Of a DNA stretch of 33,335 nt, positions 1,636 to 5,561 are shown in pieces. Source of the DNA: an uncultured Granulosicoccus sp. (GTDB lineage Bacteria; Pseudomonadota; Gammaproteobacteria; Granulosicoccales; Granulosicoccaceae). A program made the translations under genes and the position numbers. Positions within the stretch are counted from its first letter, which is position 1. Every line of letters begins with the position of its first letter. The DNA is taken from contig CALKLO010000071.1 in NCBI GenBank assembly GCA_937991945.1, positions 1 through 33,335 of the forward strand, read 5' to 3'. The notes beneath the pieces were generated by a model. The model was not told where the DNA came from. It ran no database searches and saw only the letters and a list, made by a program, of their open reading frames with translations.

Positions 1636-2271
1636 TTAGTCAACAACCACTAAGCCTTGAGGCGTGTTCAGGGAAAATGAAAGCGCACTCGCGCCTTCAC
1701 TCACGCTGGCAAGGTGTGCCACCTGAAGAGCTTCAAGCATGGATTGCAGCTTGGCAGGTTCAGGATGCGATAAATTAACCGATGCGAGTTGTACGCCTAA
1801 ATCCTGTTGAGCGGTGCTGGGGTGAGGACCCGGAGACCATTCTATAAAGGCTGGAAGTAAGGCATTTTCAAGTAAATCGCCATTTTTGGGTACGGTTAAT
1901 CGCCATGATCTATCACCTCGTGTAAACGTGACTATTTCGCCTAGATCAATAGGGCTGTTAGCCACGAGTGTGTCAAGGTCGTCGGTATTAACAACCCAGC
2001 ACAGCGCACGGGGCCGAGTCACTAACTTTGCTTGTGTCTTAGGATCATCAAGCGTAAACCAGCGCGTACGACCTGGGTCTGGGGCATCAGGATCAATCGC
2101 TATGAGTTCTAGAAAGCTTTCATTACCAGATTGCATCACGCGATTGTGCGTGCTCATCAAATCATGCTTGCTACCTAAGCTTAAGGTGACTCCTAGCTGC
2201 TCTTTCAAGTAGTCAACGCCTTGAGTCAGGTCGTTAGCACCAATAGCGAAATGATCAATTTTGTTTTGCAT
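1636..2271 (-). CDS. VOC superfamily / glyoxalase-like domain protein
   Basis: A 211-residue protein of the glyoxalase-like (VOC, Glyoxalase_3 type) group, whose members are metal-dependent enzymes or binding proteins built from paired beta-alpha-beta-beta-beta units. It opens with KIDHFAIGANDL (possible metal ligand His7). It continues with STHNRVM (His42) and FLELIAIDPDAPDPGR (Glu55 and the following loop), which is the typical wording of this subgroup. There is no signal peptide, so it is probably cytoplasmic. It is the last gene of a minus-strand group behind the rhodanese, with a 70-base gap. The reaction cannot be inferred from the sequence. Confidence 0.8.
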   Translation of the reverse strand: MQNKIDHFAIGANDLTQGVDYLKEQLGVTLSLGSKHDLMSTHNRVMQSGNESFLELIAIDPDAPDPGRTRWFTLDDPKTQAKLVTRPRALCWVVNTDDLDTLVANSPIDLGEIVTFTRGDRSWRLTVPKNGDLLENALLPAFIEWSPGPHPSTAQQDLGVQLASVNLSHPEPAKLQSMLEALQVAHLASVSEGASALSFSLNTPQGLVVVD

Positions 2272-2341
2272 AACAGATTTTGAAAGGGTCCGAAAAGTCT
2301 TTGAGGTATGTGAGTCGCTAACGTTAAAGCGTGCCCGATGC

Positions 2342-2743
2342 TTACGCTTTCTTCTCAGGGAATTCGACTGGGCCGTTGTTCTTTTCCCATGTTGAGAATC
2401 CTTCTTTTAAGTGTGATGCTTCAAAACCCATGTCTTGGAGGGTGGCTACAGTAAGTGCTGAACGCCAGCCAGAGGCACAATGGAAAACGTATTTTTTATC
2501 TTGTGCGAAAACCTCTTTGTGGTACGGGCTATCTGGGTCTACCCAAAATTCAATCATGCCGCGTGGAGCGTGGATGCTGCCAGGAATGAACCCACTGCGT
2601 TGCCGTTCTCGGATATCTCGTATGTCAACAACGACGACGCTGGGATCATCCAGTGTAGCGATAAGATCGGGTGTCTCTATCTCTTCGATGCGATCTCGGG
2701 CTGCAGCAACCATGTCGGCCGCGGATATTTTCAGTGTAGACAT
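2342..2743 (-). CDS. Single-domain rhodanese-like protein
   Basis: A 133-residue one-domain rhodanese (sulfurtransferase fold). It shows VVVVDIRDIRERQRSGFIPGSIHAPRG (about residues 36-62) and the active-site loop HCASGWRSA, with Cys89 as the expected persulfide-forming residue. The loop is intact, so catalytic activity is plausible; the sulfur donor and acceptor are unknown. The length fits single-domain family members. It lies between the truncated dehydrogenase remnant (82-base gap) and the VOC gene, all on the minus strand and probably co-transcribed. Confidence 0.88.
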   Translation of the reverse strand: MSTLKISAADMVAAARDRIEEIETPDLIATLDDPSVVVVDIRDIRERQRSGFIPGSIHAPRGMIEFWVDPDSPYHKEVFAQDKKYVFHCASGWRSALTVATLQDMGFEASHLKEGFSTWEKNNGPVEFPEKKA

Positions 2744-2825
2744 AGTCTGTAGAGGTTCACAAAGCTAAAGAGTGAGCTCATATGTGAACACGATTCTCGT
2801 ATTCTTGCAATGTTGCCATATGCCC

Positions 2826-3431
2826 TCAAACAAATGAAAAACAGAACTCAGCTTTCTCAGTCACGTTTGCACGGGATAGCATACCTTCAGCCGTTGTATA
2901 CGAGCATGAAAAGGTCGCGAGTTCCGCAGCACTCAGCGAGCTGTTGATGACACCAACGTTGCGATGATCGATGCGAGCATATTGCGCAAAGCCTCCGTCG
3001 CATTCAGAGCCGTAGTAGCCGGTGGTTTTTTTGTTTAGTGGGTCATCCCAGTTTCGTATCCAATTATCAGTAATGACTCGTTTGCCGACATAGTTTTTTG
3101 GGTCAACTGATTCTCCAACAGCGACAATAGTGCCGACAGCATCAGCGCCTTGGATGCGAGGAAAGGAAATAGGAGCTCCACCCCATGTTGGACCAGCATC
3201 GTCAACCTTTGCGTACTCATCGCCGGTGGTAGCTTCGGTTACTGCCTTGGAGTACCAGCCAGAGCGGGTATTTACATCTGTGTTGTTCAAACCACATGCT
3301 GCTACTTTGATAATGACGTCGTGTGGGCCAGGTGTTGGCGTTGGCCAACTCTCATGCCATTCAAGTTTATCAAGTCCTCTATGACCCGTTAGCACGAAGG
3401 CGCTCATAGTGCTTGGAAGCTTCTGAGTCAT
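2826..3431 (-). pseudogene. Zinc-type alcohol dehydrogenase / quinone reductase family, C-terminally truncated
   Basis: The 201 residues match only the N-terminal GroES-like catalytic domain of medium-chain dehydrogenases (MDR family): WPTPTPGPHDVIIKVAACGLNNTD (about 30-53), the FPRIQGADAVGTIVAVG segment (90-106), and GGFAQYARID (146-155). Family members are usually about 330-370 residues. After SRANVTEKAE (186-195), where the nucleotide-binding Rossmann domain with its GxGxxG motif should begin, the frame ends in FCFSFV and a stop. No Rossmann sequence is found in the roughly 80 bases before the rhodanese gene. This looks like a 3' deletion, leaving a probably non-functional remnant. Met9 is an alternative start. 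It is divergent from the gene at 3608. Confidence 0.72.
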
Positions 3432-3607
3432 GGTTTTTTTCAGCTATTGTTTGGCAGGTGTGCGTTGTTAACTGAAACGGTAGTGTCTCGAGGCAACCTG
3501 TATTGATAACAGTGAGTTTATGATTAGGTGGCTAGCGGTTAAGATGATACCGGTTATGCGCACCGCTTAAGTCGTTAATAAACCGATTGACCATAGGATA
3601 TAAAATT

Positions 3608-4319: not shown

Positions 4320-5561
4320 ATGACATTGTATCCAGTATTGCTACTACCGCTAATAGCGTTCGCCATGTTGGTGTTCTTGCCGTTGTTCGGTAACGATAGA
4401 AACGTCTCGAAAAAATTCAGAAGCCGCAAACGGCGGAAGGTTTTGCTTGGGCGTTTGGCTGTTTTTATGTTGCTTTTCGCAACATTCTTGACGCTTGTTT
4501 GGCCAATTGATGGCATAAGCAGTCTCGTGCAGGGCCTTCTAATTACCGTACTAGTCATGATTCCCGCTCTGGTGCTTCATTTTCTTGTTTCCATACATTA
4601 CGGAAACGAGGTAGATGGATTTTCAAAGTGGGGCAATGACGAAGACGGTGACGTGAAATGGGTGGACAGCCGCAGTTCTAGCCAATCGCAATCTGCGTCA
4701 ACTAATCAGGCTTTTGCTGGTGGAAAAAGCACACCAAACAAATCTCAAAAACAACGTTCAGCAGCACCTGCTAGTCCTGTTTCGGATCACGACAGACGGC
4801 AGTCAGAACAACCCATTCACCTCGGTCAAGACACGGAAGATCGCAGGCAGCCAAACCAGGCTATCCACCTCGGGCAGGAAACTGATCGCAGGCAGCCGAA
4901 TCAGGCGATACCACTTGGGCAGGAAAATGTCTCCAGCTCATCCAGCCAGGCTATACCCCTTGGTCAGGATTCACCTAGGCAGCGGCCAAATCAGGCCATT
5001 CATTTGAGCCGACAATCTGCGAGTGGGCGAAATGCAGGAGCAGACGTTAATAGTCGGCCTCGTACAACGCCTGAGGTGCGCGAGCAGTTAAACCAAGTTT
5101 CCAACTTAGTTCAATCTCATGATTTAGACTACGACGACGCCGCAGTAGATCCGGCAATTCCTGTGGTGAGTAAGCCGATCAGAGAACTTCCAAGATCTGC
5201 GATGAGTCAGGGGCTTACTGCTTCTGAGTCTGACGATTTAAGCTCCATGAGCACGGATCGCATGTCCGGCTTAGTCACCTCTCTGCGCGAAGAGAAAAGT
5301 CGATTGCAGAAGCTCGTCATCGCACAACACGCGGTGATCGAGTCCGAGCGAGAGTCAAACATTCGAAATCGTGGCCTTGCCCGCGACGCCATCGATCTGA
5401 TGCAAGGTGCGCAGAAAAATCTGAAAGTTGCCGAAAAACTGGCAAGGCGAGAGCGCACCGAACGCCAGCGCATTGAACTTGAGTACAAGAAAGTATCCGT
5501 GGCGCTCAACAATGCGATGTCGATCATCAGGACAAGGCAGAATTCTCCTAACCCAGGATAG
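4320..5561 (+). CDS. Unrecognised membrane protein with QAIHLGQ-type repeats and coiled-coil tail
   Basis: A 413-residue protein I cannot assign to a family. There are three hydrophobic segments (about residues 3-23, 44-62 and 66-92), with a very basic stretch between the first two (KKFRSRKRRK, 31-40). A polar Ser/Gln-rich linker follows (116-160). Next come five heptads, QPIHLGQ, QAIHLGQ, QAIPLGQ, QAIPLGQ and QAIHLSR, at 164, 180, 195, 210 and 225. The C-terminal part (about 313-402) is charged and heptad-like, probably coiled coil, and ends in a short Pro/Asn tail. ATG 4320 has only a distant AGGA (4300-4303); Met16 is an alternative start but would shorten the first membrane segment. The topology suggests a membrane anchor carrying a long cytoplasmic binding arm. 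No function is claimed. Confidence 0.75.
   Translation: MTLYPVLLLPLIAFAMLVFLPLFGNDRNVSKKFRSRKRRKVLLGRLAVFMLLFATFLTLVWPIDGISSLVQGLLITVLVMIPALVLHFLVSIHYGNEVDGFSKWGNDEDGDVKWVDSRSSSQSQSASTNQAFAGGKSTPNKSQKQRSAAPASPVSDHDRRQSEQPIHLGQDTEDRRQPNQAIHLGQETDRRQPNQAIPLGQENVSSSSSQAIPLGQDSPRQRPNQAIHLSRQSASGRNAGADVNSRPRTTPEVREQLNQVSNLVQSHDLDYDDAAVDPAIPVVSKPIRELPRSAMSQGLTASESDDLSSMSTDRMSGLVTSLREEKSRLQKLVIAQHAVIESERESNIRNRGLARDAIDLMQGAQKNLKVAEKLARRERTERQRIELEYKKVSVALNNAMSIIRTRQNSPNPG
4809..5012 (+). repeat. In-frame protein repeats, five units of about 15 codons
   Basis: Five copies of a Q-[AP]-I-[HP]-L-[GS]-[QR] heptad recur at residues 164, 180, 195, 210 and 225 of the 4320 gene, so the spacing is 16, 15, 15 and 15. 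The DNA is partly repeated as well: GATCGCAGGCAGCC occurs at 4839-4852 and again 45 bases later at 4884-4897. The linkers vary (DTEDRRQPN, ETDRRQPN, ENVSSSSS, DSPRQRPN) while the heptad stays constant, as expected for selection on a binding motif. Confidence 0.85.

Follow-up and report, generated by a model that had tools for sequence, protein, structure and literature searches.

A membrane-anchored coiled-coil protein of Granulosicoccaceae with a fast-changing arm that may carry repeated docking motifs

The window, by which we mean the whole 33,335-nucleotide stretch of DNA analysed here, lies on a contig that is part of a 3.83 Mb draft genome in 158 contigs, from an uncultured member of Granulosicoccus, a genus reportedly known from kelp, to judge by paper titles. 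It holds a gene for a 413-residue protein that we assign to a family, family A, with an N-terminal membrane anchor, a long arm and a C-terminal coiled coil. The open frame starts with ATG; among 12 family-A proteins checked, ten start with ATG and two with GTG, with the start sites in relatives chosen to align with the start of the window protein. The features of the gene are listed below.

4320..5561, + strand: whole gene, family-A membrane-anchored arm and coiled-coil protein, 413 aa (open frame; orthologues)
4335..4391, + strand: membrane segment 1, residues 6-24 (hydropathy; AlphaFold helix 4-19)
4392..4439, + strand: basic loop NDRNVSKKFRSRKRRK, 9 K/R and 1 D/E (positive-inside rule on hydropathy segments)
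4440..4496, + strand: membrane segment 2, residues 41-59 (hydropathy; AlphaFold helix 31-60)
4539..4595, + strand: membrane segment 3, residues 74-92 (hydropathy; AlphaFold helix 68-101)
4809..4829, + strand: heptad copy 1, QPIHLGQ (pattern, residue 164)
4857..4877, + strand: heptad copy 2, QAIHLGQ (pattern, residue 180)
4902..4922, + strand: heptad copy 3, QAIPLGQ (pattern, residue 195)
4947..4967, + strand: heptad copy 4, QAIPLGQ (pattern, residue 210)
4992..5012, + strand: heptad copy 5, QAIHLSR (pattern, residue 225)
5070..5111, + strand: short conserved segment EVREQLNQVSNLVQ, residues 251-264 (low-confidence AlphaFold helix, block pLDDT 46-56; family alignments)
5253..5543, + strand: long C-terminal coiled coil, residues 312-408 (pLDDT mostly >90; 3.52-residue periodicity)

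The original prediction, made from the DNA letters, described three membrane segments, a disordered-looking arm with five heptads and a coiled coil, and this anatomy is right. AlphaFold2, supplied with 13 aligned sequences, places helices at residues 4-19, 31-60 and 68-101 (pLDDT about 57-77 by block), in agreement with the hydropathy segments, and gives pLDDT below 50 over residues 97-152 and 154-250, which makes the stretch from about 97 to 250 unstructured. The coil is predicted as a single long helix at residues 312-408 with pLDDT mostly above 90, and the hydrophobic periodicity of the family-A C-terminal alignment peaks at 3.52 residues. The full model is poor, with a mean pLDDT of 59 and a pTM of 0.26. 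A basic stretch, EKxARRERxERxRIE, is conserved within the coil (mean column identity 63% in the coil alignment A2), and HDL comes shortly after EVREQLNQVSNLVQ, where the family consensus reads VxEQLxxxDxLVxxHDLG. The window protein and 13 others of the 15 aligned family-A proteins have the three N-terminal membrane segments and the basic loop between the first two, which carries 6-9 K+R and 0-2 D+E in these 14; the exception is the second G006 copy, which is without segment 1. Because the positive-inside rule puts this loop in the cytosol, the long C-terminal part, arm and coil together, is predicted to lie in the cytoplasm.

The original prediction knew of no family with this arrangement, and the searches agree. 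In Pfam the window protein comes closest to DUF1761, scoring 13.7 bits over its full length and 17.6 bits when residues 1-110 are searched by themselves, against a cut-off of 31, and NCBIfam, PHROGs and PADLOC give no match at E up to 0.1. Against the PDB by sequence, the coil profile has no match at E up to 10, the membrane profile has a best E of 0.07 and the whole protein reaches 0.3 or worse; Foldseek against the PDB returns seven matches, the best at E 2.5. Separate profile searches of the N-terminal part and the coil, which had been proposed as a check, thus lead to no known family. SdrC (E 6.4e-4), ClfA, PspM, CCDC50, GspB, DUF898 and others were set aside as low-complexity, membrane or coil matches, and weak NCBIfam and Pfam matches such as SdrC each occur in one or two of the 15 members. 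A phage origin was rejected, with no relative in the viral_contigs scan and no PHROGs match of the window protein; five PHROGs families match one family-A member each, the best at E 0.0011. A defence gene was rejected too: PADLOC does not match the window protein, and its Cmr5 match in two of the 15 members (best E 0.005) is taken as a coil artefact. Among the papers listed in literature searches on scaffolds, motifs or Granulosicoccus, none concerned such a protein.

Some well-known proteins share parts of the layout. ZipA, the FtsZ anchor of Gammaproteobacteria, has one membrane helix, a P/Q-rich disordered arm and a folded ZipA_C domain. It resembles the window protein in its N-terminal anchor, its cytosolic disordered P/Q-rich arm and its fast-evolving linker, but the window protein has three segments and a coil, and ZipA_C is not among its Pfam matches at E up to 10. 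ZipA_C is encoded separately in 25 of the 27 genus genomes, the window's included (it was not found in G003 and in the 68%-complete G006), so the window protein is not replacing ZipA, and the idea of a ZipA stand-in was dropped. FimV/HubP combines a periplasmic LysM part, one membrane helix, cytosolic disordered repeats and a C-terminal TPR-like domain. The membrane-anchored cytosolic disordered region with repeats is common to both, whereas neither LysM nor TPR-like domains are among the Pfam or NCBIfam matches of the window protein. The C-terminal scaffold of RNase E, likewise membrane-bound and disordered, carries short docking motifs for several partners; in contrast to the window protein, it forms part of a nuclease and attaches through an amphipathic helix, and the window protein matches no such family in Pfam or NCBIfam.

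A search with the coil profile finds family A in 13 of 27 Granulosicoccus genomes, including the window's, several of the 27 being only 63-88% complete, with no orthologue in the 21 other Granulosicoccaceae genomes searched. Among 369 genomes sampled from the class, the same profile has three matches, all in the genus, and a scan of named genomes gives relatives at 11 loci, all 11 from Granulosicoccus or Granulosicoccaceae. The profile matches the window protein in its own genome at E 8.9e-45, by construction, as A2 has 14 rows and the protein supplies one of them; independent support comes from the single-sequence search. In that search, two arm matches outside the genus, in G032 (E 2.6e-4) and G050 (E 0.005), were not confirmed by the coil profile and were rejected, as were two coil-query matches in G030 (E 0.03) and G054 (E 0.07); one additional weak hit (E 0.006) in G015 was dropped. 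The sole match of the coil profile outside the genus, at E 6.9e-4 in a sister genus, belongs to a second form treated below. So far, then, the family appears confined to Granulosicoccaceae, and the window protein would be an unnamed protein restricted to close relatives. Across family A the membrane part and the coil are conserved and the arm is not, its length ranging from 65 to 256 residues.

The arm of the window protein contains the five predicted copies of Q-[AP]-I-[HP]-L-[GS]-[QR], at spacings of 16, 15, 15 and 15 residues. When residues 101-300 were shuffled 100,000 times, one heptad arose in two shuffles and two heptads in none. At the DNA level, Tandem Repeats Finder detects only two 45-base copies (4839-4926); from copy 1 to copy 5 the codons for I are ATT, ATC, ATA, ATA and ATT, and those for L are CTC, CTC, CTT, CTT and TTG. 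By the Nei-Gojobori method the heptads have pS 0.94 and pN 0.15, a pN lowered at the patterned positions by the way the copies were picked, and the eight spacer positions have pS 0.79 and pN 0.61. A recent minisatellite is ruled out, as synonymous sites are saturated. Because the pattern used to find the copies includes I and L, a pattern-free neutral simulation was run, using a simple star-like model of a unit of 15 codons, with four rates and 2000 runs per rate, scored by the pN of the best seven columns. A pN as low as that observed was reached in 0 of 8000 runs for the window array (0 of 2000 at each rate) and in 3 of 8000 for the array of the nearest relative, G015, of whose seven copies six were used; all three runs were at the lowest rate, at which the simulated pS was 0.49 versus an observed 0.76. 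For the window array, an old duplication with later selection on the motif appears a better fit than slippage, and selection seems to have kept the heptad peptides while the surrounding DNA changed.

Overall identity between G015 and the window protein is 57%; by region it is 74% for the membrane anchor, 32% for the arm and 78% for the coil. Seven cores lie in the G015 arm (AIPLS, AIPLS, AIHLS, AIPLS, PIQLA, AISLG and SIILG) at spacings of 16, 16, 15, 15, 15 and 13, so that both arrays keep to 15-16 residues save for one interval of 13. I-x-L fills every successive slot, five of five in the window and seven of seven in G015; I and L belong to the pattern that defines a copy, and the absence of missing slots does not. 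The G015 core has pS 0.81 and pN 0.25, and its spacers pS 0.79 and pN 0.60; over the whole heptad, pN in G015 is 0.41. What the two proteins have in common is x-[APS]-I-x-L-[GSA], without the Q's and the H/P. The motif is therefore better rendered as x-[APS]-I-x-L-[GSA]-x, often with D or E next, around a shared I-x-L core, and the heptad is a local version of this looser motif. The claim that the heptad is held while the linkers vary holds within the window array and fails for the whole heptad beyond it; as a conserved unit, only the I-x-L core carries over to G015. The suggested comparison of copy number between relatives gives five in the window against seven in G015, with no array in the other 13 family-A sequences.

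The AIxL[GS] array is accordingly not a family-wide trait, being present in 2 of 15 family-A sequences; a profile built from the 12 copies has no significant match in the other 13 (p 0.11-0.92). G001 has a different repeat, nine copies of D-[LQ]-[TS]-[ILV], with pS 0.80 and pN 0.21 for the motif and pS 0.81 and pN 0.65 for the spacers. A similar sequence, LDQT[IL], occurs once in each of five other members, at the conserved segment or immediately ahead of it. A single SLH lies at most 45 residues ahead of that segment in seven of the 13 remaining sequences, a number reached in none of 20,000 shuffles (mean 0.09), and a tree of 14 family-A sequences, with the partial G026 excluded, reduces these seven to three or four lineages. 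A loose Q[TS][LI] scan ahead of the conserved segment gives no excess (1 of 13), with a cut that falls within the motif in five sequences. The sequence G006a shares a six-sequence clade with the window protein (support 99/99). The resemblance between DTISLHQ in G006a and DAISLGQ in one G015 copy is a hint that the array may have grown from an ancestral single motif. The arm of G007 (L050, 9952-11415, - strand) holds a repeat of the GVTATKVAPTNGEAK type, 15 residues long and of recent origin (pS 0.27, pN 0.08), so slippage does make repeats in the arm. Arm self-repetition exceeds all 60 shuffles in 5 of 15 family-A proteins and in 2 of 14 of the sister form, so most members work without an array. 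Since other lineages have different repeats and 13 sequences are without the array, the heptad does not define a protein type. The window array is one lineage's form of an arm that changes fast within a protein whose anchor and coil are conserved.

The gene has no constant neighbourhood. A BPD_transp_2 permease gene lies downstream of it in three genomes (the window's, G015 and G006); in six (L051, L052, L053, L054, L057, L058) it sits between rnr/tRNA-Leu(CAG) and purA, in two near rplU with one gene between, in one after rnd and in one near a rimO-like gene; neighbours other than the permease and the tRNA were named by eye. The stretch beyond purA was examined in 11 genomes without family A and reached rnr in five (G003, G004, G005, G009 and G016), where the interval holds no family-A gene. 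The same interval is without one in the window's genome, G015 and G017 as well. As the interval is occupied in six genomes and lacks the gene in these eight, the family-A gene has changed place, and an explanation by gene place was dropped, the neighbours differing between lineages. Elsewhere in the window, an alcohol-dehydrogenase-like gene is cut short (2826-3431, - strand): it corresponds to residues 1-191 of a 367-residue G015 counterpart at 74% identity, and the rest of that counterpart has no match in the window. Three G015 genes between this dehydrogenase and a carboxymuconolactone-decarboxylase-like gene, named by eye as FAD-oxidoreductase-like, RpiR-like and Rieske-like, are unmatched in the window (window 2271-3587 against L047 3301-7908).

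The sister-genus match of the family-A coil profile led to a set of Granulosicoccaceae proteins of similar layout, for which we coin the unpublished name family B. Like family A, they have a hydrophobic N-terminus, a long disordered-looking arm and a C-terminal coil, but in most of them the arm is longer, more acidic and furnished with different motifs, and the C-terminal sequence is clearly distinct. A family-B profile finds members in 12 of the 27 genus genomes, in all three of one sister genus and in the only one of another, in none of 17 genomes from the remaining three genera, and in one of the 369 class genomes, G017; 14 of the 16 proteins were aligned in full, leaving out G014 and G022. 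Within the genus, A and B co-occur only in G017, and neither form is found in G005, G016 and G025. With independent genomes, an overlap this small (one or less) would have a probability of 2.8e-4; the genomes are not independent, because purA identity to G023 splits the family-A genomes other than G017 (82-100%) from the others with a purA match (66-73%). Comparison of the A and B profiles by hhalign aligns 62 ungapped C-terminal columns at a probability of 97.5 (90 and 82 in other comparisons), and the membrane parts reach 88.7. The coil score of 39.95 lies above 150 of 150 column shuffles of the B coil, 150 of 150 heptad-block shuffles and one reversal, but the best block shuffle, at 37.3, is not far below. 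On these profile comparisons families A and B are probably, though not certainly, one superfamily. Just downstream of the B gene, 12 of 15 loci (L157-L171) have a HiPIP signature, two of these genes (L158 and L159) being checked against Pfam HIPIP, and in several loci a rhodanese-like gene, identified by eye, lies beyond it.

The reading that we favour, at a probability of about one half, is that the window protein is an inner-membrane tether with a multivalent docking arm, restricted to Granulosicoccaceae. The three N-terminal helices would anchor it in the inner membrane, with the basic loop that joins helices 1 and 2, the arm of about 160 residues and the coil of about 97 residues in the cytosol, where the coil would probably form a parallel dimer. 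The flexible arm would present several copies of a docking peptide, x-[APS]-I-x-L-[GSA], whose alternation of I and L might let it pair as an edge strand with a cytosolic partner or fit a groove in it. With five copies per chain and ten per dimer, binding would gain avidity and the partner a raised local concentration at the membrane. The motif that is multiplied would be specific to the lineage: AIxL[GS] in the window protein and G015, D[LQ][TS][ILV] in another, a single SLH in several. Overall the arm has the look of a rapidly evolving docking region borne by a conserved anchor-and-coil chassis, and its motif copies would bind a partner. A broader proposal, which we regard as tentative and rather doubtful, is that forms A and B constitute a private scaffold superfamily of Granulosicoccaceae, largely replacing each other between species, with a fixed chassis on which docking peptides are swapped and multiplied by lineage, SLH and AIxL[GS] in one part of it and D[LQ][TS][ILV] in another; if true, bacteria would here provide a case of short-motif valency turning over rapidly under selection.

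It is also conceivable that the arm needs only length and polarity, the repeats being leftovers of replication slippage, in which case the protein would be one more orphan membrane protein. The spread of arm lengths from 65 to 256 residues, the different repeats per lineage and the young G007 repeat fit a neutral spacer of this kind, but we consider it unlikely: the window heptads have a pN of 0.15 against 0.61 in the spacers at saturated pS, which neutral simulation does not give, and the G015 core and the G001 motif contrast with their spacers too. A different function for the same parts would be spatial organization, with the coil placing a division, pole or flagellar-tuft machine and the arm recruiting clients, in the manner of ZipA, FimV/HubP or TipN. 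An anchor, a disordered arm and a coil follow the general logic of known organizers, and 13 of the 27 genus genomes retain the protein, 12 having its probable sister form; however, no sequence or fold match was obtained and ZipA is present separately in 25 of the 27, so we give this idea a low probability, although it is compatible with a docking arm.

The conserved EKxARRERxERxRIE stretch raises the further thought that the coil binds nucleic acid and the anchor holds a nucleoid or RNA at the membrane. K+R exceeds D+E over the C-terminal 105 residues in all 14 family-A proteins whose C-terminus is complete (21 versus 13 in the window protein), and few parts are as well conserved as the basic stretch. 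Charged coiled coils commonly have this appearance, however, no nucleic-acid-binding family is matched and the arm motifs would be left unexplained, which makes such a tether quite improbable. The place of the family-B gene by a HiPIP gene in most of its loci could point instead to a membrane protein that assists a redox or envelope pathway. We think this very unlikely for family A, since neither the window nor any of 13 stretches of 4.4-19 kb surrounding family-A genes shows the HiPIP signature in the same scan, and mature HiPIP works in the periplasm, whereas the arm is predicted to be cytosolic.

Work on short linear motifs in disordered arms is extensive for eukaryotes and far sparser for bacteria. 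Family A offers a natural series, in which one chassis bears arms of 65-256 residues with one to nine motif copies, two different motifs have been multiplied in separate lineages and the DNA gives evidence that copies were selectively retained. If a partner of the tether is found, the evolution of multivalent docking would become testable in a bacterium.

Two genomes carry the family-A gene in duplicate. On L048 of G006, two genes lie on the reverse strand of one contig (oriented 1129-2127 and 4395-5468), the first without membrane segment 1, which by eye no nearby upstream frame supplies. In G017 the two copies are 2.4 kb apart (L059, 6919-8016 and 10454-11509), and the family-B gene of the same genome (L177, 411-2474, - strand) has an arm full of DLLDDET repeats.
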